A stretch of 39,558 bases of DNA from Planctomycetota bacterium (lineage in GTDB: Bacteria > Planctomycetota > UBA1135 > GCA-002686595): assembly GCA_004357655.1 (NCBI GenBank), contig SMVQ01000087.1:1-39558 (forward strand), in the 5' to 3' direction. The first letter of the stretch is position 1; every line of letters begins with the position of its first letter. Shown here piece by piece: positions 9,801-31,518 of this stretch. The position numbers and the translations under genes were made by a program. The notes below the pieces were generated by a model. The model was given only the letters and a program-made list of their open reading frames with translations, was not told the DNA's origin and did no database searches.

Positions 9801-10262
9801 CTACGCGCCCGAGCCCGCCTCGAGGAGCACGCCCTCGACGAAGATGCGATGCCGTTCGATCCGGAAGTCGGCCCGCAGGGCGCCGCGCACCACGCCGTCC
9901 ACGCCCACGAGGAACGTGGCGCGCCGGACGCCGGCACCGAAGGGACCGTCGACGCCCCACGCGCGGATCGTGCGCTTGTCCTCGTCGGCGAGGAGCGGGA
10001 AGGGCAGCTCGTGCGCCGCGCGGAATCGGGCGTGGGATTCCGCGCCCTGTGGGCTGATGCCGACGAGCCCGAGGCCGGCGGCGAGGATCCGGGCGTGCTC
10101 GTCACGGAGCATGCGCGCCTGCTTCGTTCAGCCCGGCGTGAAGTCGGCGGGGTAGAAGTAGACGAGCAGCGGCCCCTCCGCGAGCAGCTCGGCGAGTCGC
10201 ACGAGCCGCCCCTCCTGATCGGGCAGCTCGAAGGCGGGCGCCCTGTCTCCGCGCTTCAGCAT
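9801..10262 (-). CDS. Selenocysteine-containing peroxiredoxin (BCP/PrxQ-like)
   Basis: Thiol peroxidase family that reduces hydrogen peroxide and organic hydroperoxides. Read from ATG 10262 to TAG 9801-9803 the frame gives 153 residues with one internal TGA at 10128-10130. It falls exactly on the peroxidatic residue: YFYPADFTPG, TGA, TKQARMLRDE, where BCP/PrxQ proteins have TPGCT. I read it as Sec45. The TxxU context, downstream VGISPQ and conserved Arg in VRRATFLV are intact, and both halves are normal family sequence. A bacterial-SECIS-like hairpin follows (10093-10116). There is no other Cys at all; the PrxQ resolving-Cys position is Arg50, so this would be a one-Sec enzyme needing an external reductant. 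Ordinary gene callers would split or drop it. Divergent from the 10351-17164 gene run with an 88-bp spacer. Confidence 0.88.
10093..10116 (-). promoter_or_regulatory. Candidate bacterial SECIS element
   Basis: In the mRNA, starting 12 nt after the UGA, GCG pairs with CGC, then a CA bulge, then UGCUC pairs with GAGCA, closing the six-base loop CGUGAC. The loop begins 22 nt after the UGA and has G at its second position. As I recall, bacterial SECIS rules ask for a stem of at least about 4 bp and a loop of 3-14 nt with G in its first two bases, about 16-37 nt after UGA. All are met. SelB binding is inferred. Confidence 0.7.
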
Positions 10263-10350
10263 GCGAGGAGCTTGGCACGCGGACCTGCGGGCGGGAAGGT
10301 CGCTGGGCAGGAAACGGGCATGCCACCGCGCTATCATCCGACGCTTCCTG

Positions 10351-11901
10351 ATGAGCGAGCATCGACCGGATCGGATCGTGCGCGGCGTCGCCTGGGTGCT
10401 CGCCCTGGCGCCGTTCCTATGGCTCGTGCACCGGTTCGACTTCGTGTGCGACGACGCGTACATCAGCTTCCGGTACGCGCGCAACTTCGCCTCGGGGCTC
10501 GGGCTCGTCTTCAACCCCGGCGTCGAGCCGCCGGTCGAGGGCTACAGCGAGCTGCTCTGGGTGCTCGCGATGGCCGTGGTCGAGCGCCTCGGCCTCGATC
10601 CGGGCGTCTGGTCGCGCGTGCTCTCGGTCGCCGCGGGGGTGGCGGTGGTCGGCCTCACGCTAGGCCTCGTCGGGCGGCGGCTCGCGGCGAGGCCGGCGGC
10701 GTTCCTCGGCGCGGCCCTCTTCCTCGGCTGCCTGCCGCCGCTCGCGGTCTGGTCGACGGGCGGGATGGGGACGATGCCGTTCACGCTCGCGGTCCTCGGC
10801 TGTTTCGCCGCGCTGTTCTGGCGCGAGGGCGCGCCGCGCCCCGTGGCCGCCGGGCTCGCGGCGGCGCTCGCCGTGCTCCTGCGCGCGGACGGGATGGGCT
10901 GGATCGCCGTGCTCCTCGGCGGCACCCTCGCGGCCGGTCTCGCGGGCAAGCAGCGCGCGCTCGTGCGCGCGGCCGTGCTCGCCGCCCTGCCGGCGCTCGC
11001 CGTGTTCCTCGCGAGCCTCGTCTGGCGCCGCCTCACCTACGGGGACTGGTGGCCGAACACGGCGCGCGTCAAGGTCGGGCTCTCGCCGCTGGCGTTCGAG
11101 CGTGGCGCCAACTACCTCGTGCACTTCCTGCTCACGTTCCCGGCGCTCGTCCTCGTCGCGCTCCTCGCGCTCCCGGCCTTCCGGCGCTTCCGCGACGCAG
11201 CGTCCTTCGTCGCCCTCCTGCTCATACTCGTGACGGCGGCCTACGCCGTGGTCGTGGGCGGCGACTTCATGTGCTTCGGGCGGTTCCTCGTGCCCGCGCT
11301 ACCCTTCGCGGTGTGGTTTCTCGCCGGCGGGCTCGCCGCGCTCGAGGGCCGGGCGGGGCGGGTCGTCACGGGCATCGTGGCGGCCGCGCTCGCCGCGCTC
11401 TCCCTGCTGCCCGCCTTCGACGTCCACGCCGTGCCCGAGTCGGTGCGCGGGCGGTTCCGGTTCCGGTGGAACCTGCCGACGTTTCTCTCCGAGTACGACC
11501 AATGGCACAACATGCGCGCTCAGGGGCTCGTGTGGGCCGAGCTGGGCAAGGCGCTCGCGGCGCACACATCCCCCGGGGATTCGCTCGTGTACGGTGCGAT
11601 CGGCGGGATCGGCTACTACTCCAACTTGTTCATGTACGACAGGAACGGCCTGGTGACGCGCGAGGTGTCGGAGCGCGATCCGCTCGCCAAGCCGACCTCG
11701 CCCGGGCACGACAAGGCCGTGCCCAAGGCGTTCTTCAAGAAGGACCGGCCCACGTACCTCGACGCGTTTCTCTGGCCCGCGGACGAGCCGCTGCCGGCGG
11801 GCCTCGAGGCGGAAGAACTCATCGCGATCCCGCTCGACGCCGAAGCGCTGGGAATCCGCGCGGGTTGGACGCTCTGGCTGGAACCGTACGACGGGCATTG
11901 A
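10351..11901 (+). CDS. Polytopic GT-C glycosyltransferase-like membrane protein
   Basis: 516 residues with about 9-11 hydrophobic segments between residues 12 and 370, then a soluble C-terminal domain. The first large extracytoplasmic loop carries CDDAYISFRYARNFASGLG (DD at 34-35), followed by NPG and VEGYSELLW. This is the acidic loop-1 motif of GT-C enzymes that use polyprenyl-phosphate sugars (GT39/ArnT-like and mycobacterial arabinofuranosyltransferase-like proteins). The expected role is sugar transfer on the outer face of the inner membrane; donor and acceptor are unknown. ATG 10351 is preferred, because the ATG at 10261 would overlap the divergent peroxiredoxin start. It begins the plus-strand run, six bases before the transporter ATPase, so cotranscription is likely, but a link to selenium is not evident from the protein. 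Confidence 0.75.
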   Translation: MSEHRPDRIVRGVAWVLALAPFLWLVHRFDFVCDDAYISFRYARNFASGLGLVFNPGVEPPVEGYSELLWVLAMAVVERLGLDPGVWSRVLSVAAGVAVVGLTLGLVGRRLAARPAAFLGAALFLGCLPPLAVWSTGGMGTMPFTLAVLGCFAALFWREGAPRPVAAGLAAALAVLLRADGMGWIAVLLGGTLAAGLAGKQRALVRAAVLAALPALAVFLASLVWRRLTYGDWWPNTARVKVGLSPLAFERGANYLVHFLLTFPALVLVALLALPAFRRFRDAASFVALLLILVTAAYAVVVGGDFMCFGRFLVPALPFAVWFLAGGLAALEGRAGRVVTGIVAAALAALSLLPAFDVHAVPESVRGRFRFRWNLPTFLSEYDQWHNMRAQGLVWAELGKALAAHTSPGDSLVYGAIGGIGYYSNLFMYDRNGLVTREVSERDPLAKPTSPGHDKAVPKAFFKKDRPTYLDAFLWPADEPLPAGLEAEELIAIPLDAEALGIRAGWTLWLEPYDGH

Positions 11902-11907
11902 CGCGAC

Positions 11908-12648
11908 ATGCTCGAGCTCATTCAGGTATCGAAGCGCTTCGGAGCGACGACGGCGCTCGAGCCGACGAGCCTCACGTTCGAGCGTGACGCGACGACGGTC
12001 CTCATCGGCCCGTCGGGATGCGGCAAGTCGACCCTCCTCCGGATCGCCATCGGGCTCGTCGAACCGGACGCGGGCGCCGTGCGCCTGGACGGGACGCGGC
12101 TCGAGCCGTCGACGGCGCGCGCCCTCCGGCGGCGGATGGGCTACGTGATCCAGGAGGGCGGGCTCTTCCCGCACCTCACTGCGCGGGACAACGTGACGCT
12201 CATGGCCCGCCACATCGGCCGGTCCGCGCGCGATGTGGGGACTCGGCTCGAGGAGCTCTGTGCACTCACGCGCTTCCCCGCGGACGGTCTCGAGCGGTTC
12301 CCCGCGGAACTGTCCGGCGGTCAGCGCCAGCGCGTCGGATTGATGCGCGCGCTCATGCTCGACCCGGACGTGCTGCTCCTGGACGAGCCGCTGGGCGCCC
12401 TCGACCCGATGATCCGCGCCGAGCTGCAGGACGACCTCAGGGATGTGTTTCGGGAGCGCGGGAAGACCGTGGTCCTCGTGACCCACGACATGGGGGAGGC
12501 GGCCTTCCTCGGGGATCGCGTGGTGCTCTTCCGCGCGGGCCGCATCGTGCAGTCGGGCACCGCGCGGGAGCTCCTGCACAGCCCGGCCGAGCCGTTCGTG
12601 GCCGAGTTCGTCCGGGCGCAGCGCAGCATCCTGGAGGACTACCGGTGA
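11908..12648 (+). CDS. Betaine/ergothioneine-type ABC transporter ATPase (OpuCA/EgtUA-like)
   Basis: 246 residues with a complete ABC ATPase: Walker A GPSGCGKST (34-42), signature LSGGQ (135-139), Walker B VLLLDE (155-160), and the H-loop in VLVTHDMGEA. The sequence VIQEGGLFPHLTARDNV is typical of the quaternary-amine uptake subfamily (OpuCA, ProV, EgtUA). It lacks the C-terminal CBS domains of osmoregulated OpuCA/ProV, so no osmotic gating is expected. Its stop overlaps the GTG of the next gene by 4 bp, so it should power the fused binding-protein/permease encoded there. Substrate is discussed with that gene. Confidence 0.88.
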   Translation: MLELIQVSKRFGATTALEPTSLTFERDATTVLIGPSGCGKSTLLRIAIGLVEPDAGAVRLDGTRLEPSTARALRRRMGYVIQEGGLFPHLTARDNVTLMARHIGRSARDVGTRLEELCALTRFPADGLERFPAELSGGQRQRVGLMRALMLDPDVLLLDEPLGALDPMIRAELQDDLRDVFRERGKTVVLVTHDMGEAAFLGDRVVLFRAGRIVQSGTARELLHSPAEPFVAEFVRAQRSILEDYR

Positions 12649-14126
12649 TCGCGCCGATCCTCCTGCTCTGCGCGGTGCCGTGGAGCCAGGGTCCGATCCA
12701 GGTGGGCTCGAAGGGTTTCACGGAGTCCGTGATCCTCGGCGAGGTCGTCGCGCAGTTGCTCACCGTCGAAGGCATGCCGGCGGAGCACCGCGCCCAGCTG
12801 GGCGGGACGCGGATCCTCTGGGACGGGCTGGTCGCGGGCGAGCTCGACGTCTACGTCGAGTACACCGGCACCCTGCGCGAGGAGATCTTCGCGGGCCGCC
12901 CCGTCGCGTCCGACGCGGCGTTGGCAGCCGCGCTTCGGGACGCGGGCGTCCGCGCGTCGCGGCCGCTCGGTTTCGACAACACCTACGCGCTCGGCATGCT
13001 CGCGAGCTTCGCCGCGGAGCGGGGCATCACGCGGATCTCGGACCTTGTGGGAAACAGGGACCTCGCATTCGGATTCTCGAACGAGTTCATGGAACGGGAC
13101 GACGGCTGGCCGAGCCTCTCCGCGCGCTACGGCCTCCCGCACACGAACGTGACCGGGCTGGATCACGACCTCGCCTACCGCGGGCTCGCCGCCGGAGACC
13201 TGCACGTCATCGACCTCTACGCGACCGACGCGAAGATCCGCACGCTCGCGCTGCGCGTCCTCACCGACGACCTGGAGCACTTCCCGCCGTACGCCGCGCT
13301 CGTCCTGTGGCGGGCCGACCTCGAGCAGCGGACACCGGGGATCGAGGCGGTCCTGGCGCGCCTCGAGGGCCGCATCGATGAGCCGCGCATGAGCGCCATG
13401 AACGCGCGCGTCGAGGCGGACGGCGAGTCGGAGGCGGCGGTCGCCGCGGCCTTCCTGCGGGCGGAGCTCGGGCTCCGTACGCGCGTCCGGGAGGAGCGCC
13501 GCGCGGCACGTCTGCTGCGGCTCACCGGGGAGCACCTCTTCCTGGTGGGCGTGTCCCTCGCCGCGGCGATCCTCGTCGGCATCCCGCTCGGCGTGCTGGC
13601 GGCGCTGCGCCGCAGGCTGGGACGCGGCGTGCTGGGCGTCGTCGGCGTCGTGCAGACGATCCCGGCCCTCGTGCTCTTCGTCGTGTTCATCCCGTACCTC
13701 GGGATCGGCAGGGCGTCGACGATCGCGGCGCTGTTCCTGTACACCCTGCTGCCGATCGTGCGCGGCACGTACGCCGGTCTCGCGGGCGTCCCGCGCGAGC
13801 TCGTCGAGTCGGCGATCGCGCTCGGGCTGTCGCGCAGCGCCCGGCTGCGGCTCGTCGAGCTGCCCATGGCGATGCGGTCGATCCTCGCCGGTATCCAGAC
13901 GGCGGCCGTGATCGATGTCGGACTCGCGACGCTGGGCGCGATCATCGGGGCCGGCGGCTACGGTCAGCCCATCCTCACGGGCATCCGGCTCAACGATCCG
14001 GCCCTGCTCCTGGAAGGGGCCGTGCCCGCCGCCGTGCTGGCGTTGCTCGTGCAGGCGCTCTTCGAATGGATCGAACGTCGCGTCGTGCCGCGCGGGCTGA
14101 GGCTCGAGACCGAAGGGCTCGATTAG
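12645..14126 (+). CDS. Fused substrate-binding protein and permease, betaine/ergothioneine type
   Basis: 493 residues from GTG 12645. Residues 1-15 are a short signal sequence (MIAPILLLCAVPWSQG). An OpuAC/OsmX-type binding domain follows: GSKGFTESVILGEVV, ALGGT-like LGGTRILWDGL, then GELDVYVEYTGTLREEI, ending near 285. From about 295 there are five or six membrane helices with the permease EAA-like region (ELVESAIALGLSRSARLRLV and GLATLGAIIGAGGYGQPI). The family imports quaternary amines such as glycine betaine, choline, carnitine or ergothioneine. In the EgtU ergothioneine importer the permease comes first and the binding domain second, as I recall; here the order is reversed. It lies two bases before senB and shares a run with egtD, so a trimethylammonium-histidine betaine (ergothioneine, selenoneine, hercynine) is an attractive but unproven substrate. 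Confidence 0.88.
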   Translation: MIAPILLLCAVPWSQGPIQVGSKGFTESVILGEVVAQLLTVEGMPAEHRAQLGGTRILWDGLVAGELDVYVEYTGTLREEIFAGRPVASDAALAAALRDAGVRASRPLGFDNTYALGMLASFAAERGITRISDLVGNRDLAFGFSNEFMERDDGWPSLSARYGLPHTNVTGLDHDLAYRGLAAGDLHVIDLYATDAKIRTLALRVLTDDLEHFPPYAALVLWRADLEQRTPGIEAVLARLEGRIDEPRMSAMNARVEADGESEAAVAAAFLRAELGLRTRVREERRAARLLRLTGEHLFLVGVSLAAAILVGIPLGVLAALRRRLGRGVLGVVGVVQTIPALVLFVVFIPYLGIGRASTIAALFLYTLLPIVRGTYAGLAGVPRELVESAIALGLSRSARLRLVELPMAMRSILAGIQTAAVIDVGLATLGAIIGAGGYGQPILTGIRLNDPALLLEGAVPAAVLALLVQALFEWIERRVVPRGLRLETEGLD

Positions 14127-14128
14127 CC

Positions 14129-15082
14129 GTGCGGGTTCGAATCGTCACGCCTGCGCCGGAGGGCTCGACCGCGGGCAACCGGATCACCGCGGAGCGTTGG
14201 GCAGGGCACATCGCCGCGCTCGGACACAGCGTTACGATTGACACGGGGGTGGGCGCCGAGGCCGACGTGCTCGTCGCCCTGCACGCGCGGCGCAGCCACA
14301 CCGCGATCCGGGCCTGGGCGGAATCGCGCGGCGGCGCGCCGCTCGTCGTCGTGCTGACGGGGACGGACCTGTACGGCGACATCCTCGCGGACGAGGACGC
14401 GCGGCGCTCGCTCGAGCTCGCGACGCGGCTCATCGTGCTGCAGCCCGAAGGGCTGGCCGCGCTGCCGGAGAGTGTGCGCGCCAAGACGCGCATCGTCGTG
14501 CAGTCGGCCGAGGCGCCGCCGCGCGTCGATGCTCCGGACGAGAGCGCGTTCGAGGTCACGGTCGTCGGGCACCTGCGCGCGGTCAAGGACCCGTTCCGGA
14601 CGGCGGAGGCGGCGCGACTCCTCCCGCGGACGTCGCGAATTCGCGTGCTGCACCTCGGTGCCGCACTCGACGCGGACCTCGCTGTGCGCGCGCGGCGCGA
14701 GGAGCACGAGAACCCGCGCTATCGCTGGCTCGGCAGCCGGACCCGGGACGACACCCTGCGGATCCTCGCGCGCTCGCGGCTCATGGTCTCGAGCTCGCGT
14801 GTCGAGGGCGGCTCGAACGCCGTCGTGGAGGCGCTCGCCTGCTCCGTCCCCGTGCTCGCGTCGCGCATCCCCGGCACGCTCGGCCAGCTCGGCGCGGCGC
14901 ATCCGGGCTACTTCGAGGTGGGGGACACGGCGGGGCTCGCGCTGCTCCTCGAGCGCGCGGAGTCCGAGCCTGTGTTCCTCGAAGACTTGCGCGCGAGCGG
15001 GGCGCGCGCCCGCGAGCGATTCTCGCCCGAACGCGAGTTGGAGGCCTGGCGCGCGCTCCTCGCGGAGCTCGCGGGCGCGTAG
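14129..15082 (+). CDS. senB: SenB-like selenosugar synthase (GT-B glycosyltransferase)
   Basis: 317 residues from GTG 14129, two bases after the transporter stop. In selenoneine biosynthesis SenB joins selenophosphate and a UDP-sugar to make a selenosugar, which SenA then couples to hercynine. The match rests on motifs I associate with the SenB family (TIGR04348 as I recall): GNRITAERWA (16-25), VLVALHARRS (47-56), LVVVLTGTDLY (72-82) followed by DARRSLELATRLIVLQPEGL, then VGHLRAVKDPFR, RYRWLGS and SRVEGGSNAVVEALACSVPVLASRI with the GT-B nucleotide-sugar Glu. The N-terminal half, not shared with ordinary GT4 enzymes, is the most specific part. No signal peptide. It is followed after 52 bp by a secreted-protein gene and then egtD. 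SenA and SenC are not in the window. Confidence 0.82.
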   Translation: MRVRIVTPAPEGSTAGNRITAERWAGHIAALGHSVTIDTGVGAEADVLVALHARRSHTAIRAWAESRGGAPLVVVLTGTDLYGDILADEDARRSLELATRLIVLQPEGLAALPESVRAKTRIVVQSAEAPPRVDAPDESAFEVTVVGHLRAVKDPFRTAEAARLLPRTSRIRVLHLGAALDADLAVRARREEHENPRYRWLGSRTRDDTLRILARSRLMVSSSRVEGGSNAVVEALACSVPVLASRIPGTLGQLGAAHPGYFEVGDTAGLALLLERAESEPVFLEDLRASGARARERFSPERELEAWRALLAELAGA

Positions 15083-15134
15083 GCCCGGCTGTGGTACGCT
15101 CCCGGCTCGATCCCTCCGACGAAGCGGGCCCGCC

Positions 15135-16136
15135 ATGATCCGAAACGCCACCCTCGCCGCGGCGACCATCCTCACGCTCTCGGCCGCCTACGCAGTCGGG
15201 CTGGAGGAGAAGCCGTTCCCGACGAGCTCGACGACGCTCAGGACGGACGGCGCGCTGTACTTCGTCCGCGGCCGCCAGGCGATCCCGCGCAACGCGAAAA
15301 TCGTCTCGCTGCGCAAGATGAAGGTCCACGGCCTGGGCGAGGAAGCCGTGCTCGAGGTCTCCGGCATTCTGGAGCTGAAGGCCGTGACGGGCGGGGAGGT
15401 GATCCTGGAGGACGTCTGGCTCGAGCTCACCCCGGAGTGCCGGTCGCTCTACTTGTCGCACGTCTCCTTCACGGGGAAGGGCGGCATCCGACCCTCGCCG
15501 AGAGGGCCGAGCAAGGCCAAGGTGTTCGTCGAATCGACGAAGTTCACGAACGGTGCCCAGCTGTTGATGGACTGCACGGGCGGGAGCATCTCGCTCAACG
15601 CGGTCCATGCGACCGAGCCGGTCGTGATCCGCGGAATCCCGCGCTCGGACAAGGCCGGGAGCACCCTCGAGCTCCAGATCCTGAGCTGCCAAGGCAAGGA
15701 ACGGAACGGACCGTACAAGGGGTTCACCGCCGGGCTCATCGTGGAGGGCGTGAAGGAGGTGCTCGTCCGCAACAACTACCTCGGCGGCAAGCTCAGCCGG
15801 TTCTTGAACAACGGCGCCGTGGATTTCGACGGGAACAACGCGCGGTCCGTGGACCTCGAGTTCATCATGGAGTACCCCAAGGATTTTAAGCGCGTCAAGG
15901 TTCACAACTGCGACTTCCGTTCCCAGCGCGTGAAGTTCTACGCTCCCGGGACGGGCAAGAAGGCTCAGCGCCTCGTCATCGACCACAGTTGGTTCGACAC
16001 CGGCACCGAGGCCGCGGTGATCAAGGCCGCGCAGATCATCGACAACGACGTCGACCCCTCGAACGGGGTGCTCGTCAAGTTCAAGAAGATCGTGCCGATC
16101 GCGATGGGGCTCGGCGGGCGGGCCGGGAGCAAGTAG
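15135..16136 (+). CDS. Secreted protein of unknown function, right-handed beta-helix-like
   Basis: 333 residues with a signal peptide at about 1-20 (MIRNATLAAATILTLSAAYA). The body shows irregular short strands with repeated Asn/Gly/Val turns (LEVSGILELKAVTGGEVILE, LIVEGVKEVLVRNNYLGGKL, RVKVHNCDFRSQRVKFYAPG), as in right-handed beta-helix proteins such as pectate lyase-like or NosD-like folds. I see no catalytic motif and only four Cys. It is inserted between senB (52-bp gap) and egtD (35-bp gap) on the same strand, so it is probably cotranscribed. Whether it has any part in selenometabolism is unknown. Confidence 0.7.
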   Translation: MIRNATLAAATILTLSAAYAVGLEEKPFPTSSTTLRTDGALYFVRGRQAIPRNAKIVSLRKMKVHGLGEEAVLEVSGILELKAVTGGEVILEDVWLELTPECRSLYLSHVSFTGKGGIRPSPRGPSKAKVFVESTKFTNGAQLLMDCTGGSISLNAVHATEPVVIRGIPRSDKAGSTLELQILSCQGKERNGPYKGFTAGLIVEGVKEVLVRNNYLGGKLSRFLNNGAVDFDGNNARSVDLEFIMEYPKDFKRVKVHNCDFRSQRVKFYAPGTGKKAQRLVIDHSWFDTGTEAAVIKAAQIIDNDVDPSNGVLVKFKKIVPIAMGLGGRAGSK

Positions 16137-16171
16137 CGAATAGTCTGGGTCGGGTGGCTGGACGACTCACC

Positions 16172-17164
16172 ATGAAGGCCGCGACGGACCGCTTCGAGCT
16201 CGTCACCGCGCCCTCCGGCGCCGATTCCGAGGATCTCGGGGCCGCCGTGCTCGCGGGTCTCGGCACCGAGCCGAAGAGCCTCCCGTCGCGATTCCTCTAC
16301 GACGAGCCGGGCAATCGATTCTTCGAGCGGATCTGCGAGCTCCCGGAGTACTACCTCACGCGCGTCGAGCGCGAGCTCCTCGATCGGAACGCTGCGGCGG
16401 TCGCCGCGGGCTTTCAGGGCGCCATCGACATCGTCGAGTTCGGGAGCGGGACGGCGGAGAAGACGGAACACCTGCTCGCCGCGTTCTTCCAGGGCGGACG
16501 CGACGTGCGCTACGTGCCCGTGGACATCTGCCGCGAGGTCCTCGTCGCCAGCGCCGAGCGGCTCCTGGCGGACTTCCCCAAGCTTTCGATCATGGCCCTC
16601 GAAGCGGAGTACGAGGCGGGGCTGGGGCTGCTCGCGGCCCGCGCGCGAGGCCGGAAGCTCGTGTGCTGGCTCGGATCCAGCATCGGCAACCTCGAGCGTG
16701 CGGATGCGGGCCGGTTCCTGGCGCGCGTGCGCGAGTGGCTGGGCCCGGACGACAGGTTCCTGTTGGGCGTCGATCTGCGGAAGGGCAAGGCCGTGCTGGA
16801 GGCCGCCTACGACGACTCGCAAGGCGTGAGCGCGGCGTTCAACCAGAACCTGCTCGAGCGGGTGAACAAGGAGTTGGGCGGGCGCTTCCAGCTGGACGCG
16901 TTCGATTACGAAGCCGTGTACGACGACGTGCGCGGCTGCGTGGAGATGTCTCAGGTGAGCCGGTACGACCAGGCGGTTCGCATCGAGGCGCTCGAGCGCT
17001 CGTTCACGTTCGCGGCCGGCGAGAAGATCCTCATCGAGGTCTCCGTCAAGTACTCCGAGACGGAGCTCGACGTGCTCGGCCGGCAGGGCGGGTTCGAGCG
17101 CGAACGGATCTGGCGCGACCCGGGCGCCGGCTACGCCCTCGTGCTCCTGCGACCCGTGCCGTGA
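16172..17164 (+). CDS. egtD: L-histidine N-alpha-methyltransferase EgtD
   Basis: EgtD transfers three methyl groups from SAM to the alpha-amine of histidine, giving hercynine, the precursor of ergothioneine and selenoneine. The 330 residues fit the family (about 320). Landmarks: YDEPGNRFFERICELPEYY (43-61), SAM-binding VEFGSGTAEKT (88-98), YVPVDI (114-119), LGSSIGNLE (167-175, Asn173), AAYDDSQGV (211-219, Tyr213) and LIEVSVKYS (287-295). The Asn, Tyr, Glu289 and Ser291 correspond to histidine-binding residues of mycobacterial EgtD as I recall. No EgtB or SenA is adjacent. ATG 16172 is chosen; an in-frame GTG at 16153 would add only a few residues. It is the last gene of the plus run, followed by a strong hairpin. 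Confidence 0.93.
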   Translation: MKAATDRFELVTAPSGADSEDLGAAVLAGLGTEPKSLPSRFLYDEPGNRFFERICELPEYYLTRVERELLDRNAAAVAAGFQGAIDIVEFGSGTAEKTEHLLAAFFQGGRDVRYVPVDICREVLVASAERLLADFPKLSIMALEAEYEAGLGLLAARARGRKLVCWLGSSIGNLERADAGRFLARVREWLGPDDRFLLGVDLRKGKAVLEAAYDDSQGVSAAFNQNLLERVNKELGGRFQLDAFDYEAVYDDVRGCVEMSQVSRYDQAVRIEALERSFTFAAGEKILIEVSVKYSETELDVLGRQGGFERERIWRDPGAGYALVLLRPVP

Positions 17165-17182
17165 GCCGGAGCCCGCGCGGCG

Positions 17183-24296: not shown

Positions 24297-24339
24297 CCTC
24301 GCGGAGCGCGGGGGGAGGCCTCTACTGGGCCTGGGGGAG

Positions 24340-24355
24340 GAGCGCGCGGGCGCTC
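24340..24355. terminator. Weak hairpin between convergent operons
   Basis: GAGCGC and GCGCTC form a perfect 6-bp stem with loop GCGG in the 83-bp space between the DUF1579 stop and the stop of the minus-strand ABC operon. No T-run. Position suggests a shared terminator, but such short GC stems are common here. Confidence 0.3.
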
Positions 24356-24379
24356 TCGCCAGGTCCGCGTCTCTACCGC

Positions 24380-25165
24380 TCAGGCGGTGAGCACGTACTG
24401 CCGCCGCGCGATTCCGAGCGCGCCGACCACGAGCGTGACGATCGCGACCACGGCCAGGGTGCCGAGCGCTTCACCGGGGCTCGAGAACGAGTCGATGTTC
24501 AGGATCTCCGCGCTCTGCCAGCACGTCTCGGTCGCGTCGACGAGGATGCTCCGGAGGTGGTACTGGATCGTGAGGCTCTGGCTTCCGCCGGGCACGTTGG
24601 CGATCGCCATCTCGAACGCGAACGTGTAGCCGAGGCCGACGATCATGGGGTGGCGGAGGAACACGCCGATCGTCGCGAACAGGATCGTGTACACGGTGCC
24701 GCCCACGATGTTGGCTGCGAAGACACGCAGGGCCAGGCCGTCCGGTAGCTCGCCGGTGCGCTGGGCGGCGGCGAGTGCGATCGCGATCGCACTCGACCCG
24801 AGCAGCAGCCAGACGAGGACGAGCGTCGCCAGCAGGCGGCCGAAGAGCAGCGCAGGGCGCGGGATGGGTCGCGTGAAGAGGTAGGTGATCGTGCGGTTCT
24901 CGATCTCCTCGGTGACGACGGCCGAACCGGCGACGAGCGCGAGGATCGGGACGATCACCTGGAGGTTCAGCCAGAACGAGATGCTGGCGAGGATCTCGCC
25001 TGGCTTCACGTCGCCGGGCGCGAACGTCGCCACGATCAGGGCGATGACGGGCGGGATCGCGGCGAGGAGGATCGCGAGCAGCATGCGCCGCGAGCGCATC
25101 ACCATCGTGAGCTGCATCCGGAAGAGGAGCCAGGTCGCGCGCAGGAGCTCAATCATTCCATTCAC
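24380..25165 (-). CDS. ABC-2 type permease
   Basis: 261 residues with about six membrane helices. The N-terminus (LLRATWLLFRMQLTMVMRSR) and SAVVTEEIENRTITYLFTRP are typical of ABC-2 permeases of the NatB/NosY type: 'xxExxxxTxxyLxxrPixR'. GTG 25165 overlaps the stop of the ATPase gene (GTGA), so translation is probably coupled; ATG 25156 is an alternative. It should form the membrane part of an exporter with the ATPase at 25162-26082. Substrate unknown. Last gene of the eight-gene minus-strand ABC run. Confidence 0.85.
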   Translation of the reverse strand: MNGMIELLRATWLLFRMQLTMVMRSRRMLLAILLAAIPPVIALIVATFAPGDVKPGEILASISFWLNLQVIVPILALVAGSAVVTEEIENRTITYLFTRPIPRPALLFGRLLATLVLVWLLLGSSAIAIALAAAQRTGELPDGLALRVFAANIVGGTVYTILFATIGVFLRHPMIVGLGYTFAFEMAIANVPGGSQSLTIQYHLRSILVDATETCWQSAEILNIDSFSSPGEALGTLAVVAIVTLVVGALGIARRQYVLTA

Positions 25166-26082
25166 CCCACGAGGTAGTCGAAGATCGCCTCGAGGTCCGC
25201 GTCCGGGCTCTCGAGACTCTTGATCCCGACCCCGAGCTCGGTCGCGAGCGCCGGCAGGTCCTTGAAGAATGTCTCCACGTCGCGCGTCTCGACGTCCAGG
25301 CCGTCGTCGTCATGGAACCGGATCGCGCCGACGTGGTCGAAGCGCAGGAACGCCTCTGCCAGGCGCCGCGGCTCGCGCACGGTCAGGCGCACGCGGCGGG
25401 GGTGGCGCGAGAGCAGGCGGCGGACGTCGCCGACGCTGCCCTGCGCGAGGAGGCGCCCGCGGTGGATGAGCACGATCTCCTGGGTGAGGCTCTGCACCTC
25501 GTGCAGCACGTGGCTCGACAGGAGCACGTGGGTGCCCGCCTCGCCCAGCTCCTTGAACAGCTCGAGCGTCTCGTGCCGCGCGACCGGATCGAGGCCGGAG
25601 AGCGGCTCGTCGACGACGAGCAGCTCGGGCCCGTGGGCGATCGCCTGGGCGAGCCGTGTCCGCTGGCGCATGCCCTTCGAGTACTCGCCGACCTTGCGCT
25701 CCATGGCGTCCTCGAGGTGAACGCGTTCCAGCGCTCGGATGGCGAGCCTATTCGATTCCTTCGCCGAGAAGCCGTAGAGCCGGACGAGCGCCGCGACGAA
25801 CTCGCGCCCGCGCATGTGGTCGTAGAGGGCGTCCTGCTGGGGGCAGAAGCCGATGCGCCGGTACAGCCGGAGATTCGCGAACGGCGTCTCACCGAGGACG
25901 GTGAGCGCGCCGCGCGACGGGCGGATCTCGCCGACGAGGAGCTTCATGAAGGTCGACTTGCCCGCGCCGTTCGGTCCGACGAGTCCCGTGACGCCGCCCT
26001 CGATCGAGACCGAGAGGTCGGAGAGGCCGACGACCTCGCCGTACCAACGCCCGACGTCCTTCGCGACGATGATCGCGCTCAC
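25162..26082 (-). CDS. ABC transporter ATPase of an ABC-2 export system
   Basis: 306 residues from GTG 26082, which overlaps the upstream permease stop (GTGA). Walker A GPNGAGKST (36-44), signature in EYSKGMRQRTRLAQA, Walker B LLVVDE, and H-loop VLLSSHVLHEVQ are intact. The extra C-terminal domain (about 230-306) is usual for DrrA/NatA/CcmA-type ATPases that work with ABC-2 permeases. It lies between two ABC-2 permease genes and probably pairs with the downstream one. Transported compound not predictable. Confidence 0.88.
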   Translation of the reverse strand: MSAIIVAKDVGRWYGEVVGLSDLSVSIEGGVTGLVGPNGAGKSTFMKLLVGEIRPSRGALTVLGETPFANLRLYRRIGFCPQQDALYDHMRGREFVAALVRLYGFSAKESNRLAIRALERVHLEDAMERKVGEYSKGMRQRTRLAQAIAHGPELLVVDEPLSGLDPVARHETLELFKELGEAGTHVLLSSHVLHEVQSLTQEIVLIHRGRLLAQGSVGDVRRLLSRHPRRVRLTVREPRRLAEAFLRFDHVGAIRFHDDDGLDVETRDVETFFKDLPALATELGVGIKSLESPDADLEAIFDYLVG

Positions 26083-26984
26083 GCGACCTCCTCCATGCGC
26101 CGCAGGCGCCACCACAGGACGAACAGCGTCGAGGCGAAGAGCATGGACACGGCGCAGAGCGACGCCTCGGGCGCCCAGTCGTACGACGTCTTTCGCGCGA
26201 ACGCCCAGTCGGCCAGGCGGTCCGTGTTCCGGAACAGGCTGAGCAGGCGATAGCGCGACTCGTGGGTGAGCTGGAAGAGCACGTTGCTGACGGCTTCCGT
26301 GAGGAACACGAGCCCGAACACGGCCGCGAGCGCCAGGGTCTTGCGCTCGACGAGGCTCGACACGGCCAGCACGAGCGCCGTGATGATCGCGATCCAGGCC
26401 GCGGAGAACGCGACGGTCTTCAGGATGACGTCCCACTGGTCCTTGACGTACGACCAGTCCGGCGACGAAAAGGCAGCGATCGTGTTGATCGCGATGGCCG
26501 GCACGAGCAGGGCGAGGCATCCGAACCACGCCGTGGCGAGGAACTTGCCCAGGAGGTAGTCGAGCCGCGTGATCGGACGCGAGAAGTAGAGCAGGTGCGC
26601 TCCGAGGCGCCGGTCCTCGGCGATCATTCCTGCGCCAAACCAGGCTACGGTGAGCAGCACGAAGCCGCGCACGAGGGGGAACGTGAGGAAGCTAACGATC
26701 TGCTCCGCGACCTCGGTGTTCTTCCCCGCCAGGGCGAGGACCATCTGCGCCTGGCCGGCGTCGATGCCCGGCACCTCGCCCTTCTGGAGAGCGTAACTCG
26801 CGTACACGATGAAGCTGAAGATGATCGCCGCCATCGCGGGCGGGCCGAGCATCACGAGCAGCGGGAGCTTCTTCTTGGAGGCCAGCCGGATCCCCGACCA
26901 GGCGATCGTGAGGAAGCGGAACGACCGGGTCGAGAGCGTGCCCTCGAACGGGCGGTAGATCTCGGTGTGGGTGGTGGCCTTCAT
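26079..26984 (-). CDS. ABC-2 type permease
   Basis: 301 residues with about six membrane helices and the ABC-2 pattern GMIAEDRRLGAHLLYFSRPITRLDYLLGKF cut here as GMIAEDRRLGAHLLYFSRPI plus TRLDYLLG. It starts with MKATTHTEIYRPFEG, a longer cytosolic N-terminus than the other permease. ATG 26984 overlaps the preceding ATPase stop (ATGA), and its own stop overlaps the next GTG. Likely partner of the ATPase at 26981-27937. Substrate unknown. Confidence 0.85.
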   Translation of the reverse strand: MKATTHTEIYRPFEGTLSTRSFRFLTIAWSGIRLASKKKLPLLVMLGPPAMAAIIFSFIVYASYALQKGEVPGIDAGQAQMVLALAGKNTEVAEQIVSFLTFPLVRGFVLLTVAWFGAGMIAEDRRLGAHLLYFSRPITRLDYLLGKFLATAWFGCLALLVPAIAINTIAAFSSPDWSYVKDQWDVILKTVAFSAAWIAIITALVLAVSSLVERKTLALAAVFGLVFLTEAVSNVLFQLTHESRYRLLSLFRNTDRLADWAFARKTSYDWAPEASLCAVSMLFASTLFVLWWRLRRMEEVA

Positions 26985-27937
26985 GCGCTCGCCGTCTTCC
27001 CGGCCTGTTCGTGCTCGTTCACGGCCTGGAGGAACACTTGCTCGAGGGTGGAGCGCACGGGCGCCAGCGCGGTCACCGAGGCGCCCACCCGCGCGGCGAT
27101 CGCGAAGATCGGGTCGGCGTCCTCGGCGCGGCCGTCGAGCTGGATCGTGAGCGTGCCCAGCTCGCCGCTCTCGCAGCCGTAGCCCGCCTCGCGCAGGGCG
27201 GCGGTGAACCGCTCGGTCTCGCCCTCGACGCGCGCGCTCAGCAGCAGGCCGTCGGATCGCGTCATCTCCTCGATCGCTCCTTCCGCAGCCACCTGCCCGC
27301 GGTTGAGGACGACGATCCGGTCGCAGGTCTTCTCCACATCGGGCAGGAGGTGCGAGCAGAGCAGGATGTTCTTCCCCTGTGCGTGGCCGAGGTCGTGCAC
27401 GAGCTCCAGCATGTGCCGCCGCCCCTTGGGGTCGAGCCCGTTCGTCGGCTCGTCGAGGAGCAGGATGTCCGGGTCGTGGACGAGCGCCTGCGCGAGCTTC
27501 AGGCGCTGCTTCATGCCCGTCGAGTACTCGTCGAGCCCGCGGTAGCGCGCCTCCTCCAGCTCGACGTAGTTGAGCGCCTCGTGCGCGCGGGTCATCGCGT
27601 CCTGCTTCGACATGCCCGTGATGCGCCCGAGCGTCGCCACGAGGTCGACGCCCGTCATGCCGGGCATGAGGCAGTCGCCCTCCGGCATGTACCCGACGAC
27701 GCGCCGCACGGCCAGGCGGTCGGCGCGCTTGCGTGGGTTGAAGCCGGCGACGAGCGCCTCGCCCCCCGTCGGCTTCAACAGTCCCAGCAGAAGTTTTATG
27801 AGCGTCGTCTTGCCCGAGCCGTTCGGGCCGAGCAGGCCCACGGCGCCGCGTGGAATGTCGGCGGTCACGCCGTCCAGGGCGCGTACGTCCCCGAAGTGCT
27901 TCTCCAGCCCGCGCAGGGTGATGATCGGGTCGGTCAT
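26981..27937 (-). CDS. ABC transporter ATPase of an ABC-2 export system
   Basis: 318 residues from ATG 27937 (MTDPIITLRGLEKHFG). Walker A GPNGSGKTT (37-45), signature EYSTGMKQRLKLAQAL, Walker B ILLLDEPTNGLDPKGR and H-loop LLCSHLLPDVE are complete, with the C-terminal domain of the NatA/CcmA type. The frame continues upstream to 28039 but that part is Ser/Pro-rich and overlaps the importer permease. The gene starts 28 bp after the last PhnE-like gene, so the importer and exporters may share one transcript. Confidence 0.9.
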   Translation of the reverse strand: MTDPIITLRGLEKHFGDVRALDGVTADIPRGAVGLLGPNGSGKTTLIKLLLGLLKPTGGEALVAGFNPRKRADRLAVRRVVGYMPEGDCLMPGMTGVDLVATLGRITGMSKQDAMTRAHEALNYVELEEARYRGLDEYSTGMKQRLKLAQALVHDPDILLLDEPTNGLDPKGRRHMLELVHDLGHAQGKNILLCSHLLPDVEKTCDRIVVLNRGQVAAEGAIEEMTRSDGLLLSARVEGETERFTAALREAGYGCESGELGTLTIQLDGRAEDADPIFAIAARVGASVTALAPVRSTLEQVFLQAVNEHEQAGKTASA

Positions 27938-27965
27938 GTGGGGCGGGGAGCTCGGCGGGTCGAGG

Positions 27966-28928
27966 TCAAGAGCCCCGTCGGGCGGAAGCGCGTGCCAGGG
28001 TGGAGAGGATGTCGCTCGCGATGACGATGCACGCTCCAAGCGCTACGAGCAAGAGCATCTCGTCATACCGGTGTCGTGCGCGCGCGTCCTGGATCCAGTA
28101 GCCGAGCGAGACGACGCCCAGCATCCCCAGTACGGTCGCCTCGCGCACACATGTCTCGAATCTATAGAAGAAATAGAGCAGGAGCCGCGGGAGGGCCAGG
28201 GGCAGGATCGCCACGCCCGTGAGCTGGCGCCGGCTCGCGCCCAGCATCCGGAGCGCACGCAAGGGCGCGGCGTCCAGGTTCTCGATCGTGTCGGCCCCGA
28301 GCCGTCCGAGGATTCCGGCGTTATGGATGGCGAGCGCGAGCACGACCGGCCAGGCGCTGGGGCCCAGCATGGCGAGCAGGAGGAACGCCCACACGTACTC
28401 GGGCACCGCGCGCAGTGCGACGAGCAGGAGGCGCGTGAGCGTGGTGAGCGCGCGCCAGCCGGGCCCGTGCCGGCAGTTGTCGCCGCAGAGCTGGTAGGGA
28501 TCGCGCGTGGCGAGCGTGCGCGACGCGAGCGGCGCGAGGAGCGTGGCCACCGCCGCGGCCAGCACGACGGCGAGGATCGAGATCCACAGCGTCGCGAGCA
28601 TCGCGCTCCACCCGTGGTCGGCGAGGATCGCGCCGGCCCAATCGAAGAGCCCACGCCACGAGAAGCCGGCTTCGCGCAGGGGCGCGGGCATCGCCTCCTC
28701 GGTGAGGAAGCGCTCGAGGTTGGCGCGCCGCCGCGCGCTGAACAGCTCGCCCGTCGCGATTTCGCCCGAGCCGAAGCGCACGCCCAGGACCTCCACGCGC
28801 GGGCTCCAGGCCCAGGCGGCGAGCAGCGCGAGGCCGGCGACCGTCCAGCGCACGAGTCGGCTGCGCGGCCGCCGCCGATGGAGCGCGCGGATCGCGCTGC
28901 GCGGGTCGAGCTCGCGTGCGCCGTTCAT
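27966..28928 (-). CDS. PhnE-like ABC importer permease (second subunit)
   Basis: 320 residues, about six membrane helices after a basic N-terminus (RSAIRALHRRRPRSRLVRW). The EAA-type loop reads DTIENLDAAPLRALRMLGAS, followed by FYRFETCVREATVLGMLG, which matches PhnE of phosphonate/phosphite-type importers (usual: FEVNVRxATVLGxVG). A short CGDNCRHGPG loop between helices is unusual. ATG 28928 overlaps the stop of the other PhnE-like gene (ATGA). Two different PhnE subunits imply a heterodimeric channel. Partner proteins are at 28925-31518. Confidence 0.87.
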   Translation of the reverse strand: MNGARELDPRSAIRALHRRRPRSRLVRWTVAGLALLAAWAWSPRVEVLGVRFGSGEIATGELFSARRRANLERFLTEEAMPAPLREAGFSWRGLFDWAGAILADHGWSAMLATLWISILAVVLAAAVATLLAPLASRTLATRDPYQLCGDNCRHGPGWRALTTLTRLLLVALRAVPEYVWAFLLLAMLGPSAWPVVLALAIHNAGILGRLGADTIENLDAAPLRALRMLGASRRQLTGVAILPLALPRLLLYFFYRFETCVREATVLGMLGVVSLGYWIQDARARHRYDEMLLLVALGACIVIASDILSTLARASARRGS

Positions 28929-29803
28929 GCGACGAACCTCTGGCGCAGGCGCGTGCTCCAACTCTCGAGCACGAGCGCGAGGATGAGCAGCGCGTACAGG
29001 TACGTCCAGACCTCGCGGTAGTGCAGGTTCTCGAACGAAGCGCGCAGGTAGTAGCCGAGCGTCGGGTAGCCGAAGAACCCGAGGATCGCGGACGAGCGGA
29101 TGGCGCACTCGTAGCGGTAGAAAGCGTACGCGGTCATGTCGGGCAGGGCGCGCGGCAGGATCCCGTGCAGGAAGACCTGCACCGGCGCGGCGCCCGTGGC
29201 GCGCAGGCCCGCGGCCGAGTCGCGCGGCGCCTCGTCGAGCATCTCCGAGAAGACCTTCGCGAGCGTACCCGTGTAAGGGATCGCGATCGCCAGCACCGCG
29301 CTCGCCGTGTTCAGTCCGAAAGCGACGAGAAACAGCACGGCCCAGAGCAGCTCGTGCACGGAGCGCATCCCGATGATGAGCGTGCGCGTCGCGCCTTGGA
29401 CGCTGCGGGCCAGGGTGCGCGAGAGGCGCGACGCGCGCGTGGCGGGGTCGCCGCTCCACCCGACACTCGAAGCGAGGAAGCCGAGCACGAGCCCGATGGG
29501 GAGCGCGAGGCTCATCGCCGCTGTCGCGAAGACGATCGTGCGCACCGTCGCGTCGAGCACCTTCAGCAGGAACGGCCGCGCCCCGTCGGGGACGCCGGCG
29601 CCCTCGTAGTCGAGCGCCGGCCGCCATGCCGCCGCGAAGAAGTCGCGCGCGATCCCCGCGCCGCCGGTCGGCACGAGTTGCGCGGGGGAGAGGCCGAGCG
29701 CGAACCACGCGACCAGCCCGGCGGCGACGATGGCGAGGATCGTGCGTCCGCGCCGCCCCAGCGGAAAGGGCCGTCGCTGCCTGCTGGTGCCCACTCCGAC
29801 CAC
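28925..29803 (-). CDS. PhnE-like ABC importer permease (first subunit)
   Basis: 292 residues from GTG 29803, directly after the TAG of the ATPase gene. About six membrane helices. The coupling loop reads MLDEAPRDSAAGLRATGAAP and is followed by YAFYRYECAIRSSAILGFFG, the PhnE pattern. It should pair with the permease at 27966-28928, the ATPase at 29804-30601 and the PhnD-like binding protein at 30619-31518. Confidence 0.87.
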   Translation of the reverse strand: MVGVGTSRQRRPFPLGRRGRTILAIVAAGLVAWFALGLSPAQLVPTGGAGIARDFFAAAWRPALDYEGAGVPDGARPFLLKVLDATVRTIVFATAAMSLALPIGLVLGFLASSVGWSGDPATRASRLSRTLARSVQGATRTLIIGMRSVHELLWAVLFLVAFGLNTASAVLAIAIPYTGTLAKVFSEMLDEAPRDSAAGLRATGAAPVQVFLHGILPRALPDMTAYAFYRYECAIRSSAILGFFGYPTLGYYLRASFENLHYREVWTYLYALLILALVLESWSTRLRQRFVA

Positions 29804-30601
29804 CTAGGACCTCGCCGAATCGTCGGCGCTGCTCAGCTCCGATTCCAGCTCGTCCGCGAGCCGGAACAGCGCCGTGAGCTCCGTTTCCGCCACGTTATCC
29901 GACGGTGCGTCGAACACCGTCCGCCCCGCACGGAGCCCCACGATGCGCGGGAACATGCGGGCGAGGTCCAGGTCGTGCAGGGAGACGACGAGCGTGAGCC
30001 CGCGCTCCGCCGCCACGCCGGTGATCAGCTCCACGAGGTCGAGCGCCCGGGCCCGGTCGACCGACGCGAAAGGTTCGTCCGCGAGGAGCGCGCTCGGATC
30101 CTGGAACAGCGCGCGCGCGAGCGCCACGCGCTGCTGTTCGCCGCCCGACAGCGTGTCCGTGCGCTCGAACAGCTTGTCGGGAATGCCGACGCGCTCGAGC
30201 AGGGCGTACACGCGATCGATGTCCGCGCGCTTCGGGAACAGCATCGAACGCGCGGCCGCGAAGAGTCCGCGCTCCCCCAGCTTGCCCGCGACGACGTTCT
30301 GCGACACGCGCAGGTTCGGGACGAGCGAGTGGTCCTGGTGCACGAAGCCGACGTGCGATCGCACCCGGCGCAGGGCGCGCACCGGGAGCGCGCCGAGGTC
30401 CTGACCGTTCACGAGGACCGTCCCCGACGATGCGGTCACCGTCCCATTGAGCAGCCGCAGGAGCGTGGTCTTGCCCGCCCCGCTCGGCCCCACGAACGCC
30501 ACGGCTTCACCCGCGGCGATCGTGAGCTCGATGTCCGTCAGGACCGGGGTCCCGTCGAATGCGACGGAGGCGCCGCGGATTTCGAAGGCTGCGTGGGGCA
30601 G
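29804..30601 (-). CDS. PhnC-like ABC importer ATPase, probable CTG start
   Basis: 265 residues if read from CTG 30601. Walker A GPSGAGKTT (38-46), LSGGEQQRVALARAL, Walker B ALLADEPFASVD and H-loop VVSLHDLDLA are intact, as in PhnC ATPases. The first ATG/GTG/TTG in frame is GTG 30502, which would leave only four residues before Walker A and remove strand 1 and the A-loop Phe. The frame is open upstream to a stop at 30650-30652 and codes normal family sequence (FEIRGASVAFDGTPVLTDIE). CTG 30601 has GAGG seven bases upstream; CTG 30622 overlaps the binding-protein stop (CTGA) like other junctions here. Either is a non-canonical start. Confidence 0.85.
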   Translation of the reverse strand: MPHAAFEIRGASVAFDGTPVLTDIELTIAAGEAVAFVGPSGAGKTTLLRLLNGTVTASSGTVLVNGQDLGALPVRALRRVRSHVGFVHQDHSLVPNLRVSQNVVAGKLGERGLFAAARSMLFPKRADIDRVYALLERVGIPDKLFERTDTLSGGEQQRVALARALFQDPSALLADEPFASVDRARALDLVELITGVAAERGLTLVVSLHDLDLARMFPRIVGLRAGRTVFDAPSDNVAETELTALFRLADELESELSSADDSARS

Positions 30602-30618
30602 GGGTTCGCCTCGGCGGA

Positions 30619-31518
30619 TCAGCGGAGGAACTCGAGCTCCACCGCGATGTCATGGATCGGTTGGAAGTCGGCGTTCGTGGCCTCGATGAGGCCCTCCTCA
30701 CGCTGCATGGCGGCGAGGAGCGCGGGGTCCCGGGCCGCCACGAGCGCCGCCTGCAAGCGGTCGATCGTGCCCGGACCGAATCGCTCGTCGAGCACGGGGT
30801 GCGCCGTCCAATTGTAGTCGGGGTACTCGGGCGTGACCCAGATCACGCGGCAGAGCTCGGGCTCGAGCAGGCCCTCGGCCACCATCGCGTCGTAGCGCTT
30901 GTAGCTCAAGGCGCCGGCCTGGAACGTCCCGGCCTCCACGAGCTTGGCCGTGTTGTCGTGGTTGCCCGAGTAGGTATTCGGCGCGCCGAAGAACTCCGGG
31001 GGGGACTGCTGCGTGTTCTGGCGGATGAAGTACTCCGGCATCAGGCGGCCCGAGGTGGAGGTGTCCGAGCCGAACGTGAAGCGCATGCCCGCGAGCTCCA
31101 TCGGGAACGTCTCGCTCAGGGTGAGGGCGGTGCTCGCGTGGGCGACGAAGTAGCTCTTGAAGGCCGGGTCGATCCGGCCCTGCGCGATCGCCCGGGCGCC
31201 CGGCACCGCGGCGCGGGCCTGTGCGCCCGTGAGGCCGCCGAACCACGCGAGCTGGACGTCCCCGTTCCGGAAGGCCTCGACGGAGGCGGAGTAGTCCGCC
31301 GCGGGGACGTACTCGACGGGGATGCCGAGCGTCTCCGCGAGGTAGCGCGCGACGACGTCGTACTTCTCGGCCAGCTCGGTCGTGTTCGCGTCGGGGATGG
31401 CGCTGAACCGCAGCACCGCGGGTTTCGTGGAGCTCTGGACGGTGCAGGCCGCGAGGGCGAGGAGGCAGGCGACGGCGGTACGCCGGCACCCGGGAGCGGT
31501 GTGTTCTGGTCCGACCAT
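30619..31518 (-). CDS. PhnD-like lipoprotein, putative selenate/oxyanion ABC binding protein
   Basis: 299 residues from ATG 31518, with a lipobox LAAC (Cys25). The mature part begins LRFSAIPDANTTELAEKYDV and continues VEYVPAADYSASVEAF, DVQLAWFGGLTGAQAR, FGSDTSTSGRLMPEYFI, YSGNHDNTAKLVEAG and PDYNWTAHPVLD. This is the PhnD fold. The combination of SAIPD..TEL, LAWFGG.T.xQAR, SxTSGxLMPxYF and DYNWT is what I recall for the family named putative selenate ABC transporter substrate-binding protein (TIGR04553), rather than classical phosphonate binders. Nearby selenium genes support that reading, but phosphite or phosphonate remains possible. First gene of the eight-gene run; 220 bp upstream separates it from the divergent molybdoenzyme operon. 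Confidence 0.83.
   Translation of the reverse strand: MVGPEHTAPGCRRTAVACLLALAACTVQSSTKPAVLRFSAIPDANTTELAEKYDVVARYLAETLGIPVEYVPAADYSASVEAFRNGDVQLAWFGGLTGAQARAAVPGARAIAQGRIDPAFKSYFVAHASTALTLSETFPMELAGMRFTFGSDTSTSGRLMPEYFIRQNTQQSPPEFFGAPNTYSGNHDNTAKLVEAGTFQAGALSYKRYDAMVAEGLLEPELCRVIWVTPEYPDYNWTAHPVLDERFGPGTIDRLQAALVAARDPALLAAMQREEGLIEATNADFQPIHDIAVELEFLR

Follow-up and report, generated by a model that had tools for sequence, protein, structure and literature searches.

Does a stretch of planctomycetal DNA in which several genes with links to selenium lie close together encode one coherent selenium region, or a smaller functional unit set among other genes? This question is raised by contig C258 of a Planctomycetota bacterium, a high-GC (guanine plus cytosine) sequence of 39,558 bases, here called the window, from a draft genome of 4.45 Mb (357 contigs, 77.8% complete). 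Within 22 kb of it, a sequence-only reading had noticed a selenocysteine (Sec) peroxiredoxin, senB, egtD, an EgtU-like transporter for possible re-import and a selenate-type importer, and had taken them as one region for selenium uptake, selenometabolite synthesis and selenoprotein use. The explanation favoured here, with a probability of about 0.7, is narrower: positions 11908-17164 would form a co-directional row of selenoneine genes with an importer for a histidine betaine, from which the peroxiredoxin (Prx) and the importer of the TIGR04553 family would be separate. The identities of the genes, the presence of the whole known pathway and the recurrent linkage of the transporter to egtD are shown by sequence; that selenoneine is made, and that a histidine betaine is the transported compound, is what these observations suggest.

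Families were assigned by profile searches against Pfam and NCBIfam with curated cut-offs, and solved relatives were sought by a sequence search of the PDB. The comparison set comprised 154 genomes of the same order (labelled G000 etc.).

The senB row and the selenoneine pathway

The genes of the row are the following:

10261..11901 (start maybe 10351), + strand: membrane protein that opens the row and by eye resembles a glycosyltransferase; no family match
11908..12648, + strand: opuA-type ATPase (opuATP) of a betaine ATP-binding cassette (ABC) transporter; NCBIfam proV 221 bits (a subfamily model, below its cut-off of 326.6), Pfam ABC_tran
12645..14126, + strand: fused substrate-binding protein (N-terminal; Pfam OpuAC, residues 17-272) and permease (C-terminal; BPD_transp_1, residues 312-480), opuSBPperm
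14129..15082, + strand: senB, selenosugar synthase; TIGR04348 382 bits, cut-off 300
15135..16136, + strand: open reading frame (ORF) between senB and egtD, with a signal-peptide-like start (by eye); no Pfam or NCBIfam match
16172..17164, + strand: egtD, histidine N-alpha-methyltransferase (hercynine supply); TIGR03438 330 bits, cut-off 290.9

The order opuATP - fused binding protein/permease - senB - ORF - egtD, all on the + strand, is a new arrangement. The fused gene overlaps the ATPase gene by 4 bases and senB starts 2 bases past the permease stop; the row is presumably a single operon. The gap of 6 bases between the first membrane protein gene and the ATPase gene suggests, by spacing, that this gene would also belong to the row.

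The best PDB match of the window SenB is RsSenB (8k5u, 212 bits). Nine residues of VpSenB (N20, T23, H58, R61, T83, T85, R155, K158, and E231), which the accessible part of PMC10891094 assigns to substrate binding or catalysis with selenophosphate and the uridine diphosphate (UDP)-sugar, are all kept (9/9), and the protein is predicted to make a selenosugar. For EgtD, the best solved match is the EgtD structure 4uy6 (204 bits). The remaining genes were found on other contigs of the draft: SenA on contig C18 (489 bits, cut-off 420) and SelD on contig C20 (329 bits, cut-off 125), the latter with one in-frame TGA and the sole selD over the cut-off. The genes senA, senB and senC/selD do not lie side by side in this genome (C18, C258, and C20, respectively); such adjacency occurs in relatives. 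As judged by these family scores, all known selenoneine genes are present, on different contigs. Absence of SenA and SelD/SenC homologues from the genome had been named in advance as grounds for giving up the proposed selenium region; both SenA and SelD were found, so this check does not refute it. The selenometabolite branch is supported, with SenB and EgtD in the window and SenA and SelD outside it. In the draft (78% complete) no second SenA/EgtB-type gene was found at 1e-60, so SenA is its only known hercynine user.

The mechanism would be as follows. EgtD would produce hercynine; SenB would combine selenophosphate, supplied by SelD, with a UDP-sugar to give a selenosugar; and SenA would join selenosugar and hercynine into selenoneine. 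The ABC importer, with its aromatic cage for quaternary amines, would take up hercynine, selenoneine or ergothioneine, as a precursor or for salvage. The Sec-Prx and the TIGR04553 importer would be separate genes of a genome that already uses selenium. The chemistry of SenA, OvsA, selenoneine, and ovoselenol is drawn in part from PMC9814287, PMC10702425, PMC11448449, and PMC13188914. Compared with the sen cluster (senA-senB-senC) of Variovorax paradoxus, the SenB with all its catalytic residues and the presence of SenA and of a selenophosphate synthetase in the genome are the same. The differences are that the genes are dispersed here, that egtD and a betaine ABC transporter stand in the senB row, and that selD, with its in-frame TGA, lies on another contig.

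Linkage and ligand pocket of the fused transporter

The fused binding protein/permease was found in 34 of the 154 genomes at 1e-30. Twenty-three of these loci were examined, namely 20 fetched around the fused protein together with the window, G013 and G087, the last two having been met via senB. A second set, from many phyla, was obtained by a peptide-pattern scan of genomes of named species, from which the best 80 of at least 542 relatives were taken with flanks of up to 9 kb. An opuA-type ATPase gene adjoins the fused gene in all 22 other loci of the order and in 79 of the 80 cross-phylum loci. Within the order, egtD is found near the transporter in 11 of the 23 loci: the window, G013, G087, and eight of the 20 fetched around the transporter (G029, G061 at 6 kb, G004, G057, G086, G055, G141, and G044). 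SenA is present too in G004 and G057, and the G044 locus carries a weaker, EgtB-like gene besides egtD. The arrangements vary: opuATP-opuSBPperm-senA-senB-egtD in G087, senA-senB-egtD plus the transporter genes in G013, transporter genes-senA-egtD in G057, and senA-egtD plus the transporter genes in G004.

Among the best 80 relatives, egtD is present in 24 loci, a SenA/EgtB-type gene in 16 and SenB in three. In three loci SenA, SenB and egtD occur together with the transporter (L287 and L349, titled Nitrospinae and Nitrospinota, and L350, titled 'ODZ_NOB7a'). Control genes, searched at 1e-15, gave 0/80 for hsp90, Lon, CoxL, CoxM, aminotransferase, DUF1501, TIGR04553, Prx, SelD, SelB, and DnaG, and 1/80 for RpoD; at 1e-6 TIGR04553 gave one weak match (L290). 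Thirteen SenA-type matches in the 80 loci are weaker, and the ten long enough to be aligned all carry GEYNGKFM, which makes them probably EgtB. With the egtD linkage, these probable EgtBs indicate that the transporter goes with hercynine makers generally, whether for selenoneine or for ergothioneine. In the order, SenA over its cut-off is found in nine of the 12 genomes with a near transporter (>440 bits) and in 18 of the 142 others (Fisher p 7e-6, ignoring kinship); with a transporter limit of 410 bits, picked post hoc, the figures are 10/12 and 22/142 (p 2e-6, again ignoring kinship).

The best PDB matches of the fused protein are EgtUC (134 bits) and AfProX, the ProX of Archaeoglobus fulgidus (128 bits). 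In EgtU of Streptococcus pneumoniae, G244 and F293 determine the affinity for ergothioneine, and the change G244F weakens binding about 100-fold, according to the accessible part of PMC9732360. In an alignment of 107 sequences (four short ones dropped; EgtU numbering), F occupies position 244 in 106 (the remaining one has a gap there), and all 107 carry Y at position 293. The residues K242, T296, Y341, Y419, Y443, E375, and R379 are kept throughout, save in one gapped sequence, and N339 is D in six. The aromatic cage of the window protein retains N339, Y341, Y419, and Y443 and has Y for F293. The domain order of EgtU is not matched either: the binding domain comes first here (17-272, with the permease at 312-480), whereas that of EgtU spans 233-506. 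EgtU in the strict sense is ruled out by the two differing specificity residues and the reversed domain order; as judged by these features, the transporter is a quaternary-amine importer other than EgtU. What it shares with EgtU is the fusion of binding domain and permease and the cage plus K242, T296, E375, and R379. The genomic setting differs as well, since the transporter often stands beside hercynine-making genes, whereas EgtU serves uptake in cells unable to make ergothioneine (PMC9732360, accessible part). The re-import proposed by the sequence-only reading therefore keeps the part that rests on linkage to egtD and sen genes across phyla, and loses the EgtU identity.

Several observations count against a selenoneine row with its own histidine-betaine importer, and two alternative explanations draw on them. 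The transporter could be a plain osmoprotectant importer for glycine or proline betaine that merely lies next to egtD. AfProX presumably binds proline betaine. The pocket of the window protein is of this AfProX (glycine betaine) type, with F at 244 and Y at 293, the two positions that discriminate, as PMC9732360 gives for AfProX in its accessible part, and with the cage, K242, E375, and R379 kept; it differs from ProX in being fused to a permease and linked to egtD and sen genes. The pocket residues in EgtU numbering fail to separate egtD-linked from unlinked transporters. Moreover, egtD is missing from the fetched flank in 56 of the 80 cross-phylum relatives (those of Myxococcus included), 12 of the 23 examined loci of the order have none nearby, and among the 30 of the 80 loci that reach at least 19 kb egtD is present in eight, so contig ends do not account for the loci without it. 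Against mere adjacency stands the recurrence of egtD in 24 of the 80 loci, in many phyla and differing gene orders, compared with 0-1 of 80 for the twelve controls. A simple osmoprotectant importer is regarded as less likely than not. The gene linkage favours a histidine betaine as the ligand, with odds a little above even; glycine or proline betaine would suit the pocket chemistry as well. The other alternative concerns the product, which would be ovoselenol if the distant SenA were an OvsA. The best PDB matches of this protein, whose gene lies outside the window, are indeed OvsA (316 and 307 bits), ahead of EgtB (236) and SenA (227). However, it passes the SenA cut-off, and its C-terminal active-site segments, YREYSAPWF and RNFF, have the Y and N-F of VpSenA (YRDYSAPWF and RNFF), where the OvsA chain of 8u41 carries M and Q-A; the OvsA-type segment is absent from the genome's SenA. 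The chain of 8ux5 also carries Y and N-F, and looks like an engineered variant. In addition, the row around senB contains EgtD, the enzyme required for hercynine, and two relatives have EgtD and SenB as a single fused ORF. Ovoselenol, set aside on the SenA-type segments, is quite improbable as the product.

In the literature searched, a scope outside which most subscription papers fall, including those on the discovery of selenoneine and ovoselenol, nothing joins selenoneine with planctomycetes, and no paper joins egtD, an ergothioneine biosynthesis gene cluster and a glycine betaine ABC transporter. To our knowledge, no importer for selenoneine has been described. If the egtD-linked transporter does carry histidine betaines, the makers of selenoneine and ergothioneine would also import them, and both compounds would be shared goods in microbial communities.

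As a separate observation, a second class of SenA-like proteins with about 330-390 bits, below the SenA cut-off, is common across the 154 genomes; its members may be EgtB or OvsA.

senB and its variants across the order

TIGR04348 exceeds its cut-off in 46 of the 154 genomes and 200 bits, taken as the limit for a strong senB, in 74. Sixty of the 73 other strong loci were fetched with flanks of up to 8 kb per side, often shorter at contig ends, and their neighbours were searched with the window proteins as tblastn queries at 1e-8. SenA with more than 300 bits lies in the same small cluster as senB in eight of the 60 (G013, G138, G039, G087, G053, G061, G081, and G056), EgtD is near senB in five (G013, G087, and G041, plus G039 and G043, where the two share one ORF), SelD in two, and the transporter in two (G013 and G087). 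The SenB-EgtD fusion, a single open frame of about 645 residues in G039 (L054) and G043 (L070), occurs in two genera, which argues strongly for joint action of SenB and EgtD. The ORF at 15135 gave zero tblastn matches in the 60 senB loci and the 20 transporter loci.

In 46 of the 74 genomes with a strong SenB, some of them incomplete drafts, there is no SenA of at least 410 bits, so SenB may serve other selenometabolites too. A clustering of gene neighbours over the 60 loci gave no partner shared by the SenA-less SenBs.

Eight of the 74 strong SenB frames contain one in-frame TGA, and none contains TAA or TAG. In seven of these eight, from three genera, the TGA precedes the catalytic Lys by exactly 22 residues (L057 in G080, L058 in G079, L061 in G037, L074 in G010, L076 in G006, L089 in G012, and L097 in G011), in a stretch taken as the linker between the two SenB domains. 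Among the remaining 54 SenBs of the alignment, this column holds P, V, A or other residues, never Cys. A partial SenB of G068 (166 bits) has a TGA close to the same place. SelB is present in six of the seven genomes and was not found in the G010 draft. A SenA-type match at 1e-60 is missing in six of the seven; G037 has two, below the cut-off. Compared with simple shuffles, the hairpins that follow the SenB TGAs are unremarkable, with z between +0.4 and -1.4 in eight. In these seven relatives SenB may be a selenoprotein, to judge from the shared codon position. We know of no Sec-containing SenB. Nor is one mentioned in the literature on SenB, selenosugars, and selenoproteins, as far as its accessible parts go.

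A wider proposal can be put forward tentatively. The fused ABC importers, a family as yet without a name that occurs in many phyla, would be a dedicated histidine-betaine carrier of selenoneine and ergothioneine makers; with SenA, SenB, and EgtD it would form a 'make and retrieve' locus in this order and in Nitrospinota; and the SenB of SenA-less relatives would be a selenoprotein serving another selenometabolite.

Some further neighbours of senB were noticed. A gene resembling a B12-binding radical SAM enzyme (one example, by eye) recurs in eight of the 60 loci, either close to senB or immediately upstream of it (G004, G014, G015, G025, G030, G031, G034, and G080; loci including L063, L065, L068, L071, and L073). 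In L074 (G010), L097 (G011), and L057 (G080), the senB with the TGA is immediately preceded by a gene that by eye resembles moaA. In G016 (L100), a relative of the 10261 membrane protein lies directly upstream of senB. The SenB of G005 (L107) has its TGA at residue 25, unlike the others, which may reflect recoding or a sequence error.

The wider 22-kb neighbourhood

The other features of the window are:

9801-10262, - strand: Sec-peroxiredoxin, BCP/PrxQ-like; TGA at 10128-10130, U in TPGUT; AhpC-TSA 110 bits
18271-23652: PSD1, PSCyt1, PSCyt2, and DUF1501 domains (domain search)
27966..31581, - strand: oxyanion ABC importer, whole operon (PhnE2, PhnE1, PhnC, TIGR04553)
27966-28928, - strand: PhnE-type permease PhnE2 (family search)
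28925-29803, - strand: PhnE-type permease PhnE1 (family search)
29804-30601, - strand: PhnC-type ATPase (family search)
30619-31581, - strand: TIGR04553 'putative selenate' binding protein; 289 bits, cut-off 250
31739-35531: xanthine-dehydrogenase-like molybdenum (Mo) hydroxylase with a twin-arginine (Tat) signal and 2Fe2S, molybdenum cofactor and flavin adenine dinucleotide subunits (2Fe2S-coxL-coxM); adjoins the TIGR04553 operon, also in G029

Unrelated operons do separate the gene sets, as had been proposed, with the PSD1/DUF1501 genes and ABC-2 exporters in between. The PSD1, PSCyt1, PSCyt2, and DUF1501 domains agree with an origin from Planctomycetota. At 31518, the end given earlier for the region, the TIGR04553 gene has an in-frame ATG; its longest frame begins at 31581.

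Whether these genes and the senB row act as one 22-kb selenium island, with uptake, Sec-Prx, selenoneine, and re-import, can be judged by gene order. Four gene sets on one 39.6-kb contig argue for it, and so does G029, of another genus, in which some 12 kb separate the transporter-egtD pair from the TIGR04553 operon. The order in G029 (hsp90 ... opuATP-opuSBPperm-egtD ... ABC-2 exporters - PhnE2-PhnE1-PhnC-TIGR04553 - 2Fe2S-coxL-coxM) is, however, that of the window from hsp90 to coxM, which indicates inherited synteny and is no evidence for joint function. At 1e-8 the G029 block has no match to Prx, SenB, the 10261 gene, the 15135 ORF or DUF1501; senB (and Prx) entered this block or were lost from it. 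Furthermore, none of the 60 other senB loci has a TIGR04553 match in the fetched flanks; a below-cut-off relative lies about 10 kb from senB in G040. In seven genomes (G013, G004, G063, G087, G061, G062, and G064) senB and TIGR04553 are on different contigs or more than 100 kb apart, draft contigs being no measure of distance. The single island, as the sequence-only reading had it, was dropped on the synteny and the 0/60 result and is very unlikely; the wider neighbourhood looks like chance plus synteny, and the TIGR04553 importer is probably a syntenic neighbour. What this importer carries is a related question, on which the chances are even that it takes up phosphite, or selenite of assumed equal shape, rather than selenate. 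Selenite is similar in shape to phosphite, and its uptake by this importer is conceivable. The nearest solved relatives of the TIGR04553 protein, 7s6g (203 bits) and Pm_PhnD (5lq5, 174 bits), are phosphite/phosphonate-type binders. Judged by eye on the HMMER alignment, all phosphite ligands of Pm_PhnD listed in the accessible part of PMC5700983 (Y46, S126-T127-S128, H158, D205, the cap Y206, and D13) are kept except N176, which is S. In favour of selenate stands the curated NCBI family name, putative selenate transporter; this name is the link to selenium, and selenate binding remains putative. Of the proposed selenate importer, then, the TIGR04553 score over the cut-off stands, a score reached in 68 of the 154 genomes, and the substrate is weakened by a pocket that is phosphite-type but for one residue. 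The adjoining Mo hydroxylase was considered as a selenium-dependent enzyme and rejected: YqeB (TIGR03309) has no match in the 78% draft, and Se_dep_XDH (TIGR03311) scores 183 vs 830 bits.

The Sec-dependent peroxiredoxin is supported. Its AhpC-TSA domain runs on both sides of the TGA, which takes the position of the peroxidatic Cys. At 1e-15 Prx matches occur in 81 of the 154 genomes; 28 rows besides that of the window have one TGA, and in 21 of 21 inspected it falls on the same codon (TPGU). Against the Sec reading, most rows have no TGA, including the best-scoring relatives (G115, G028, G006, and G010, about 44% identity). The fold downstream of the TGA (-13.2 kcal/mol) has z -0.08 against simple shuffles. 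The Sec machinery exceeds its cut-offs, with SelA at 485 bits, SelB at 346, SelD at 329, and tRNA-Sec at 73.7. Three scores over curated cut-offs (SenB, EgtD, and the TIGR04553 binding protein), the nine of nine SenB residues and the 21 of 21 Prx codons mean that the gene sets named at the outset are present and not chance calls. SelB is over its cut-off in 139 of the 154 genomes; Sec use is therefore ordinary in the order and says little for a special selenium island, and the Sec-Prx is probably a chance neighbour of the senB row. The protein is a peroxiredoxin selenoprotein like the bacterial ones listed in the accessible part of PMC1794560, with no essential difference known. The tRNA-Sec gene and the TGA-bearing selD lie about 3 kb apart on contig C20 (L020, G000).

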